Assembly (NCBI GenBank): GCA_022759365.1
Contig: JAEMPJ010000007.1
Location: 73,372-119,854, forward strand
Reading direction: 5' to 3'
DNA: 46,483 nucleotides
From: Thermogladius sp.
GTDB taxonomy: Archaea; Thermoproteota; Thermoprotei_A; Sulfolobales; Desulfurococcaceae
In this document: in pieces, positions 5,558-8,901 of the stretch
Layout of the letters: the number at the start of each line of letters is the position of its first letter
Numbering within the stretch: position 1 is the first letter of the stretch
Notes under the pieces: generated by a model
The model's database searches: none
What the model was told of the DNA's origin: nothing
Seen by the model: the letters and a program-made list of their open reading frames with translations, nothing else
Position numbers and translations under genes: made by a program

Positions 5558-5809
5558 GTGATAGAGGTGCTGGAAGTGGGCAAGGTTAGGATAAGGTTGG
5601 TGAAAAGGGTTGCAAGGCAACTACTCGAGTCAAACCCCCAGTTGTTCACAAGGGACTTTGAAGCCAACAAGCGGGTGGTCTCTAAGCTTATTTCCACGAG
5701 GTCTAAGAAGCTTAGGAACCAGATAGCGGGGTACATAACACACTTAGTTGCCATTAGATCCAGGGAGAAGAAGGTTGAAACAGTTGAAGAAGCACCTCCC
5801 CAAGCCTAG
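5558..5809 (+). CDS. rps17e: 30S ribosomal protein S17e
   Basis: KVRIRLVKRVARQLLESNPQLFTRDFEANKRVVSKL...SKKLRNQIAGYITHL. Confidence 0.88.
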   Translation: MIEVLEVGKVRIRLVKRVARQLLESNPQLFTRDFEANKRVVSKLISTRSKKLRNQIAGYITHLVAIRSREKKVETVEEAPPQA

Positions 5810-5943: not shown

Positions 5944-6423
5944 ATGGGCTTGAAAATCTACTCGCCAACCCGCGGGTTTCTGACTGTTGAATACCTTGGT
6001 AGAGTGTATAATGCTAGGTTCTTCCTGTGCTCTAAGAAAAGCCGTGATCTCGACAGCGAGTTGCAAGCGCTAGGGTTGACGCCTGAGCTTCCAGTGGCGT
6101 TGATCCCTGTTAAGCTCGTCGAGAACGACCTACAGCTTATTCAAGGAGTAGTCCACTACTTTGTTAACAGAGGATTATTGACCCGTATTAGACACGAAGG
6201 GCTACTCCTAGCTATGTTGATCACGGGTTTCAAGCAAATAAAAGACCTGTTAAGCTCCCTTAGAGAGGCGTACTCTGAGACAGACAAATACTTGCTAGTA
6301 TCGGCTACACAAGCCTATAATAGACCTGTTAATTGCATTGACTACCCGCTCAGCAATATAGACTTCTCGAGGAGTATTACAGGCAATGTAAAAAACGTCA
6401 CTGTTATACTAGACCTCCTATAG
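5944..6423 (+). CDS. Hypothetical protein; possible Cgi121-like KEOPS subunit
   Basis: HEGLLLAMLITGFKQIKDLLSSL...YLLVSATQ resembles the Cgi121 E-x-L-x(4)-(S/T)G-x-(R/K)QI block; family assignment tentative. Confidence 0.5.
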   Translation: MGLKIYSPTRGFLTVEYLGRVYNARFFLCSKKSRDLDSELQALGLTPELPVALIPVKLVENDLQLIQGVVHYFVNRGLLTRIRHEGLLLAMLITGFKQIKDLLSSLREAYSETDKYLLVSATQAYNRPVNCIDYPLSNIDFSRSITGNVKNVTVILDLL

Positions 6424-6426
6424 CTT

Positions 6427-6519
6427 CTACCACTCCTCCTCCCACTCCTCTTCTTCCCACTCTTCCTCTGGCTCTTCCTCCTCCCACTCTTCCTCCCATT
6501 CCTCCTCTAGCCACAACAT
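6427..6519 (-). CDS. Candidate 30-aa Glu/Trp mini-protein MLWLEEEWEEEWEEEEPEEEWEEEEWEEEW
   Basis: Codon-by-codon translation of the minus strand gives ATG...TAG with 20 Glu and 6 Trp of 30; GGTGG SD-like at 6525-6529; TATA-like TACTTAAATA at 6561-6570. Confidence 0.55.
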   Translation of the reverse strand: MLWLEEEWEEEWEEEEPEEEWEEEEWEEEW

Positions 6520-6669
6520 GTCTTCCACCTTACGTCTTAAAAGTATTTGACAATCAAGAATATTTAAGTAAAGCGGTCAGTTGTTACTATGTTTCACGAG
6601 GGGCATCCATCTGGTCTATGCATTTAATAAGGTTAGTTGAGTAAAGTATTGAGCCGTAGGGTGTGACGC

Positions 6670-6975
6670 TTGGTAAAGTTCTGCCCAAGATGCGGGGCTG
6701 CAATGTTTCCCTTGAAGAAGAAGGAGAGTGGAGAAGAATACTATGTTTTGAAATGCCCTAGATGCGGTTACGAGGAGAAGGCTTCCAAGAAGGATTTAGA
6801 GGCATACGGGTTGAAGTATGTAGTCGACTCTAGTAAGAGGACTATAACAGCTAAGGCGACGGAGGCCAGGGCGTCATCCCTATCCCCAGACGAGAGGGAG
6901 ATGCTCCAGGAGTACTACGAGGTTTTACTGGAGAGCATGAAAGAGGAGGAAGGCGAGGAGGAGGAATCAGACTAA
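6670..6975 (+). CDS. TFS/RPB9-family protein with the N-terminal zinc ribbon only and an acidic tail
   Basis: FCPRCGAAMFP...YYVLKCPRCGYE ribbon; no second TFIIS-type ribbon; ends EEEGEEEESD; TTG start. Confidence 0.75.
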   Translation: MVKFCPRCGAAMFPLKKKESGEEYYVLKCPRCGYEEKASKKDLEAYGLKYVVDSSKRTITAKATEARASSLSPDEREMLQEYYEVLLESMKEEEGEEEESD

Positions 6976-7092: not shown

Positions 7093-8901
7093 TTGACGAG
7101 AGTAGCCGTAATTGATAGGGCTTTCTGTAAACCAGACAAATGTTCACTGGAGTGTATAAGGTTCTGCCCTGTCAACAGGAGTAGGAAGGTTAAGGCTATT
7201 GAGCTGAGCGCGGATGGAAAACACGCAGTCATAAACGAGAACACGTGTATCGGTTGCGGTATATGCGTAAAGAAGTGCCCGTTTAACGCGATCTCGATAG
7301 TCAACTTGCCAGACGAGCTGGAGAAATTCACCGTCCACCGCTACGGCGAGAACATGTTTAAACTCTACGGCCTCCCACCGCTCACACTTGGGGGAATCCT
7401 TGGTGTTATAGGTAGGAATGGGAGCGGTAAGACAACTACCGTTAAGATTCTCTCGGGGCAACTCAAGCCTAATCTAGGAAACTACGCGAACCCGCCGGAC
7501 TGGGATAAAATACTTAGGGCGTTTAGGGGTACAGAGGTGAACGCCTACCTCCAGAAACTCGCTAACGGGAGCTTGAAGACTGCTGTTAAACCACAGTATA
7601 TCGAGGCTGCTCGGAGGGTTTTAAAGGGGAGTGTCAGAGAGCTGCTTGAGAAGGCTGATGAGAGAGGTTTGCTTAAGGAGGTTGTGGAGAAGACTGGTAT
7701 ATCTGGTATTATGGGCAGAGATGTTAGGGAGCTGAGCGGAGGGGAGTTGCAGAAACTGCTTGTCTCAGCTGTATTGATGAAAAACGCTGACGCGTACTTC
7801 TTCGACGAGCCCTTCTCATATCTCGACGTGAGGGAGAGAGTAAGGGTGGCCTCAGCTATAAGAGAGTTCTTGAACCCCTCTAAAGTCTACGTTATGATTG
7901 TTGAGCACGACCTTATGATACTGGACTACGTGAGCGACTACATAGCCGTGTTATACGGTGAGCCAGGGGTCTACGGCATTGCGAGCAAGCCGTATGGTGT
8001 TAGGAGCGGTGTGAACTTCTACCTGGAGGGCTACCTGCCAGCGGAGAACATTAGGATCCGCAAAGAGCCTATTAGATTCAGGATTAGCGTAGCAGACAGG
8101 AGTAAACACCCCGAGGAATACCCTATTCTCAAGTGGGGCAACCTGTGGAAGGCCTACCCGAGTAGCGGCTTCAAGCTCATCGTCGAGGAAGGAGAGGTGC
8201 ACCCCGGCGAGGTGCTCGGCATCCTAGGGCCAAACGGGATAGGGAAGTCGACGTTCATAAGCATGCTCGCAAACGTGGTTAAACCAGATAAAGGGGAAGT
8301 GCTCGTGGGCACAGATAAGATCAGCTATAAACCACAGGAGGTCTCGCCCTCAATATTCGGATTCGAGACGGTGAAAGATAATCTAGCGAGTGCCTCCAAA
8401 GACGCCGTCGACCCTACTACCTGGCTCTACGATGAGTTGACTAGGAGACTAGGCTTGAACAAGATGCTTGATAGAAATGTGAGAGAGCTTAGCGGCGGCG
8501 AGCTACAGAAGCTTGCGGTCGCTGTCACGTTGGCTAGAGACGCAGACGTGTACCTCTTAGACGAGCCTTCAGCATACCTGGACGTCGAGGAGAGGATCAG
8601 CGTCGCGAGGCTGATAAGGAGGATAGTGGAGGAGAAGAGGAAGGCCGCTATTGTTGTCGAGCACGATCTTCTACTACAGAACTATGTTAGCGATAAAATA
8701 ATGGTTTTCACGGGCAGGCCTGGGGTGGAGGGTGTCGCCTTAAAGCCTACGGATATTCGAACAGGTTTCAACAATCTGCTGAAGCAACTTGACATAACTG
8801 TTAGAAGAGACCACGAAACAGGTAGGCCGAGGATAAACAAGCCTGGCTCATACCTTGACAGGGAGCAAAAGAGCAGGGGGGAATACTACCTCCCGGATTA
8901 G
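7093..8901 (+). CDS. ABCE1/Rli1 ribosome-recycling ATPase
   Basis: N-terminal 4Fe-4S motifs CIGCGICVKKCPF, two ABC NTPase domains (GRNGSGKTT; GPNGIGKST), two LSGGELQK signatures. Confidence 0.96.
   Translation: MTRVAVIDRAFCKPDKCSLECIRFCPVNRSRKVKAIELSADGKHAVINENTCIGCGICVKKCPFNAISIVNLPDELEKFTVHRYGENMFKLYGLPPLTLGGILGVIGRNGSGKTTTVKILSGQLKPNLGNYANPPDWDKILRAFRGTEVNAYLQKLANGSLKTAVKPQYIEAARRVLKGSVRELLEKADERGLLKEVVEKTGISGIMGRDVRELSGGELQKLLVSAVLMKNADAYFFDEPFSYLDVRERVRVASAIREFLNPSKVYVMIVEHDLMILDYVSDYIAVLYGEPGVYGIASKPYGVRSGVNFYLEGYLPAENIRIRKEPIRFRISVADRSKHPEEYPILKWGNLWKAYPSSGFKLIVEEGEVHPGEVLGILGPNGIGKSTFISMLANVVKPDKGEVLVGTDKISYKPQEVSPSIFGFETVKDNLASASKDAVDPTTWLYDELTRRLGLNKMLDRNVRELSGGELQKLAVAVTLARDADVYLLDEPSAYLDVEERISVARLIRRIVEEKRKAAIVVEHDLLLQNYVSDKIMVFTGRPGVEGVALKPTDIRTGFNNLLKQLDITVRRDHETGRPRINKPGSYLDREQKSRGEYYLPD

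Follow-up and report, generated by a model that had tools for sequence, protein, structure and literature searches.

A small minus-strand open reading frame in the window (the whole stretch of 46,483 nucleotides from Thermogladius sp. that was analysed) encodes a peptide made almost entirely of Glu and Trp, which we call EW. Comparison with relatives shows, at the level of sequence, that EW is a protein-coding gene of an undescribed family, which is found across the Thermoproteota and is absent from the libraries that we searched. The most constant companion of this gene is RLI/ABCE1. Taken jointly, the coding status of EW and its linkage to ABCE1 are well supported, and we would be surprised if they were wrong. 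We think it probable that EW is a partner of the translation machinery that has so far escaped notice. What is new is the protein family and its composition, while the mechanism that we discuss below stays a proposal.

Reading frame and family members

In the window, EW is read from an ATG at 6519 to a stop at 6429-6427, that is, over 30 codons, exactly as the original prediction had it. A GTG three codons 5' of the ATG gives an alternative form of 33 residues, and a genome-wide search found a single copy of EW in the window's own genome. The sequence 5' of the ORF reads ...tacTTAAATAttc...gtaAGGTGgaagacATG. The Shine-Dalgarno-like (SD) and TATA-like motifs that had been predicted before the ATG are both present and are shared by three other genomes of the genus, where AGGTGgaagacATG and ACTTAAATAT, both 5' of EW on the minus strand, are kept (Table 1).

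Table 1. Features of the window at and around the EW gene
Feature	Position	Strand	Basis and remarks
eS17 (S17e) ribosomal protein	5558..5809	plus	profile searches
Cgi121-like KEOPS subunit ("5944 gene")	5944..6423	plus	profile, Pfam, Foldseek; tail-to-tail with EW
EW mini-protein gene, MLWLEEEWEEEWEEEEPEEEWEEEEWEEEW*	6427..6519	minus	ORF list, homologues and codon-position test
Shine-Dalgarno-like AGGTGG	6526..6531	minus	about 6 nt before the EW ATG; conserved in genomes G000-G003
TATA-like box ACTTAAATAT	6560..6571	minus	sequence and upstream sequences of G000-G003; kept in the genus
TFS/RPB9-like single zinc-ribbon protein, acidic tail	6670..6975	plus	TFS_arch 33 bits, below cut-off
RLI/ABCE1, ribosome-recycling ATPase	7093..8901	plus	Fer4_RLI, ABC_tran

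We collected 116 EW members from 115 genomes of the same class, all of which consist mostly of Glu/Asp plus Trp. The core set comprises 103 compact members from 102 genomes, mostly 24-41 residues long, with one form of 12 residues (G014). A pattern search found EW in 127 of the 214 genomes of the order, a few of these matches (from family f6) being unrelated long proteins, whereas the reversed control pattern was found in 2-3 of 214, which puts the EW matches well beyond chance. In other genera, the ORFs next to homologues of the 5944 gene share little DNA identity and have the same two-residue make-up (for example MIWFEEEWWEEEEEEEWEEEEEEWWEEEEEW, LIWFEEEWEEEWWEEEEEWEEEWEEEEW and MLWFEEEWEEEWEEEEWEEEEWEEEEW), and the Sulfolobaceae use a dialect that contains D (for example VDVLVFEEDWEEEFEEFEEEEDWEEEEDWEEEW).

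In this family, G makes up about 95% of codon position 1 and A about 95% of position 2, as counted on the non-Trp codons of the acidic tracts (H 0.37 and 0.32 bits), and position 3 is variable (1.42 bits). Between the members of 43 close pairs we see 27, 13 and 230 differences at codon positions 1, 2 and 3, and 217 synonymous versus 37 non-synonymous codon changes; the pairs share branches and are not fully independent, so that these counts describe rather than test. Since the change is confined to one frame, which would not happen in a purine-rich non-coding tract, it argues for a coding sequence. Furthermore, an SD motif of at least 4 nt precedes 63 of the 77 members with a single possible ATG, a restriction by which the start was chosen blind to the SD, compared with 21% in shuffles. 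The prediction of an unannotated mini-protein under selection is thus borne out: as the check proposed with it asked, syntenic relatives were compared, and they keep the frame, their changes are mostly synonymous with a bias to the third position, and the ORF is apparently translated.

The same prediction had offered an alternative, in which EW is no gene and its tract is a C/T-rich 3' element of the Cgi121-like gene; a microsatellite of that gene would be a similar reading. There is indeed a tandem-repeat signal at 6426-6514, and the plus strand there is a polypyrimidine tract. However, the codon-position test already contradicts such an element, and the frame-specific conservation extends across the phylum, with or without Cgi121. 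We reject this alternative because the ORF occurs in either orientation to the 5944 gene and also without it; it is almost certainly wrong.

The EW members that we tested have no match in Pfam, NCBIfam, PADLOC or PDB, searches whose sensitivity is limited by the low complexity of the peptide; one PDB sequence match, to an engineered protein, lies at chance level (E = 8.9). In the literature on small proteins and on EEEW in archaea we found no report of an EW peptide. A viral origin was rejected, as the strict pattern has no match in viral contigs.

Some members depart from the compact form. Families f5 and f6 (loci L059-L075) have longer Glu-rich proteins with FW, YW or LW pairs, located away from RLI, and in several f6 genomes the long form is convergent with a gene for a MiaB/CDKAL-type tRNA methylthiotransferase. 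These long forms are mostly without a terminal W, and they may not be orthologous to EW. One Sulfolobaceae genome (G190) has two EW genes (L124 and L148), one beside RLI and the other elsewhere, which may be the trace of a duplication that preceded relocation in its genus.

Composition and the C-terminal tryptophan

The core members are composed of 66% Glu, 19% Trp and 5% Asp, and basic residues are absent from the acidic body of all but one of them. Of the 103, 92 end in Trp and 3 in Phe, and in 100 the residue before the last is Glu. Among non-redundant bodies, 58 of 69 end in Trp, compared with an internal Trp frequency of 0.167 (p = 2e-34, a value that overstates independence, the sequences being related). 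Terminal Trp is likewise present in 11 of 12 members from outside the class.

Aromatic residues are spaced by about 4.8 residues, and their periodicity peaks at 75 degrees (1.57 versus 0.84 in shuffled sequences). At 100 degrees there is no signal of an amphipathic helix (0.77 versus 0.81 in shuffled sequences), and this model was rejected on that ground. On composition and spacing, we take EW to be more likely a disordered peptide of the sticker-and-spacer type than an amphipathic helix. The regular spacing of Trp noticed in the window is thus real, but its arrangement as W-E3/4 around a Pro is not general: most members have blocks of E5-8 and WW pairs, Pro occurs in few (a central Pro is also seen in G006), and symmetry about it is not a feature of the family.

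Gene neighbourhood

We identify the 5944 gene as a strongly diverged Cgi121, a subunit of the KEOPS complex for tRNA t6A. On its own it has no Pfam match; its profile matches Cgi121 in PDB (E = 9e-6), PF08617 is found in 2 of 11 relatives (best 1.7e-5), and the top Foldseek matches are all Cgi121/TPRKB, with E above 1e-3. Across the class, its relatives stand between eS17 and EW/RLI, and S17e adjoins the EW locus in families f1-f3 and f9. The TFS-like protein consists of an N-terminal zinc ribbon only and an acidic tail, and its paralogue family travels with RLI in f1, f12-f16, f19, f33, f34 and f40.

In most families EW lies directly upstream of RLI. Both are on the same strand in f2, f3, f8, f10, f11, f13 and f14, in the order Cgi121, EW, RLI in f3, f10 and most of f2 and f8, and simply EW, RLI in f11. 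The TFS-like gene stands between EW and RLI in f13, f14, f19 and f40; in f13 and f14 the order on one strand is Cgi121, EW, TFS-like, RLI, and in f12 the contig ends after the TFS-like gene of the same series. In f1, which includes the window, EW is tail-to-tail with Cgi121 and lies between it and the TFS-like-RLI pair. Here EW is on the strand opposite RLI in 19 of the 22 genomes that have RLI in the fetched locus, and in the window and most f1 genomes it is at least 567 nt away from RLI, with the TFS-like gene in between. In the Sulfolobaceae, EW ends 38-76 nt short of the matched RLI start in 22 of 29 RLI loci and lies about 700 nt upstream in one further locus (L161). In the g72 genomes of that group EW is found elsewhere in the genome, away from RLI, yet it is conserved.

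A pattern of the WW type had matched 39 of the 397 genomes of the phylum, none of them outside the class. We rejected a class-restricted family, because single-Trp forms turned up beside RLI in other classes, and the apparent limit is thus an artefact of the pattern. Of the 27 families sampled in these other classes, 12 have EW on the same strand as RLI and upstream of it; in 10 the two genes are directly adjacent, at about 57-220 nt, and in 2 a TFS-like gene stands between. From its persistence across all these loci we conclude that RLI is the most constant companion of EW. The original prediction had considered a link to the adjacent TFS/RPB9-like gene; this is often a neighbour of EW, as in f13 and f14, yet it is RLI/ABCE1 that is constant, and this gene had not been connected with EW.

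On the other hand, EW was not detected in the RLI loci of f18, f23, f50 and what we take to be Ignicoccus- and Aeropyrum-type genomes. Loss, relocation or divergence could account for this, and it follows that ABCE1 does not always need EW. A fusion of EW to the termini of RLI in such lineages was looked for and not seen; the only protein with such a tail is the TFS-like protein of f16 (L222 and L242), which ends in an E-rich, Trp-bearing stretch, ...EEEEEEEEEEEEGEGWGEGEEY, possibly a fusion of an EW-like tail. In two f15 genomes (L223 and L224) the slot before the TFS-like gene and RLI is occupied by a small acidic ORF rich in Phe, in which Phe replaces Trp.

Possible roles and known systems

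ABCE1 splits ribosomes and then stays on the small subunit. To our knowledge archaea have no eIF3j, and they lack eIF3 as well, so that the RRM of eIF3b, the known partner of the eIF3j motif, is missing. In eukaryotes, eIF3j helps ABCE1 to recycle ribosomes (PMC7196836), joins it in a post-splitting complex on the 40S subunit (PMC10175282) and binds its known partner by means of a Trp set in an acidic motif (PMC2824034). Given this precedent and the constancy of ABCE1 as a neighbour, we propose that EW may be a disordered acidic-aromatic ligand that acts in trans and modulates ABCE1 or the post-splitting small subunit in the manner of eIF3j/Hcr1, a reading to which we assign a probability of roughly one in three. 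Action in trans is indicated at least where EW is on the strand opposite RLI or far away from it, since a role as a cis leader is excluded there. The peptide would carry three or four Trp "stickers" about 5 residues apart, with Glu providing solubility. These stickers and the free C-terminal Trp would lodge in hydrophobic pockets of a basic surface, either on ABCE1 or on the small subunit that it has just split, and binding would modulate splitting or release by ABCE1 as well as the hand-over to initiation; in eukaryotes the same may hold for the N-terminus of eIF3j/Hcr1, which is acidic and bears Trp. Every step from linkage to binding to effect is inferred, and linkage is not interaction; that EW also has Cgi121 and the TFS-like gene as neighbours counts against a role with ABCE1. 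More tentatively still, EW could be an archaeal translation factor of about 30 residues, built from Glu and Trp, that works with ABCE1 in recycling and is a functional counterpart, perhaps even an evolutionary forerunner, of the acidic-Trp motif of eIF3j.

Other roles fit part of these observations. Acidic-aromatic tails are typical of histone chaperones, and a polyanionic Trp peptide with virtually no basic residue might likewise shield basic proteins, such as chromatin proteins or new ribosomal proteins (for example eS17, its neighbour in f1-f3 and f9), as a chaperone or nucleic-acid mimic that is independent of the activity of ABCE1. We think this somewhat unlikely: a near-invariant C-terminal Trp would be superfluous in a generic polyanion, and the lasting linkage is to RLI and not to S17e (f8, f10, f11 and outside the class), although the fetched loci are short and a distant S17e could be missed. 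Metal binding, another role named in the original prediction, gained no support here and is not contradicted either. Potentially, EW could instead be a detachable acidic tail of the TFS-like protein that acts on RNA polymerase, as the order EW-TFS-like-RLI in f13, f14, f19 and f40 and the tail of the f16 protein would suggest; this is unlikely, for f2, f3, f8, f10 and f11 keep EW beside RLI and the TFS-like gene was not detected in their fetched loci.

ABCE1 is also an Fe-S protein, and the C-terminal Trp of EW might recruit a cluster-transfer factor to it. Rli1 of eukaryotes depends in this way on Yae1-Lto1, with a critical Trp at the end of Lto1 (PMC10623007). While about 92% of the core members end in [DE]-[WF], none has the full motif [LIM]-[DES]-[WF], position -3 being E or D in 101 of 103; moreover, the motif is reported to be exclusively conserved in eukaryotic clients of the CIA machinery and absent from the archaeal homologues examined (PMC10623007), which makes an adaptor of this kind quite unlikely. 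Finally, translation of a Glu-rich ORF that ends in Trp might stall or destabilise ribosomes and so tune how strongly the downstream RLI is expressed by recycling capacity. In many families EW precedes RLI on its strand by 40-500 nt, and in bacteria acidic nascent chains have been connected with pausing and intrinsic destabilisation of ribosomes (PMC11282234). Such a regulatory leader is very unlikely, because EW is mostly on the opposite strand in f1 and unlinked in g72, where its composition and C-terminal W nevertheless persist.

If the role with ABCE1 is true, few conserved translation factors would be as small and as simple as EW. That a two-letter protein should be phylum-wide and linked to a universal ribosome-recycling ATPase calls into question ideas about the minimum sequence complexity of a conserved protein. 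The curated family libraries that we searched lack it, though it is found in well-studied archaea. It also makes the question of an eIF3j-type accessory of ABCE1 in archaea testable in Sulfolobus, where genetics exists.

Among known systems, acidic ribosome-destabilising leader peptides resemble EW in being encoded by a short acidic ORF, which in many genomes lies 5' of a translation-factor gene, but other EW genes lie on the opposite strand or are unlinked, so that there the peptide acts in trans. Histone-chaperone tails of the DEF/Y type and acidic activation domains have aromatic anchors spaced in a polyacidic disordered sequence, a design that EW may share; they are parts of larger proteins, whereas EW is a protein by itself, in linkage with translation genes. 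The CIA-targeting (TCR) tripeptide of Lto1 and other clients is similar in placing acidic-aromatic residues at the C-terminus of a small partner of Rli1/ABCE1, and its last two positions fit most EW members. Its position -3, however, is L, I or M, whereas every core member has E or D there except two, which have R and W, and the CIA targeting complex is eukaryotic (PMC10623007). eIF3j/Hcr1 differs from EW in the helical domain that follows its motif, since EW is a free peptide of 25-40 residues (the core ORFs stop after 12-41 codons and have no Pfam match), and in its alphabet, that of EW being far narrower and too low in complexity for a comparison by sequence homology. On the other hand, both have Trp within a Glu/Asp-rich stretch, as all collected EW members do, and both are connected to ABCE1/Rli1, eIF3j/Hcr1 in ribosome recycling (PMC2824034, PMC7196836) and EW through gene linkage.
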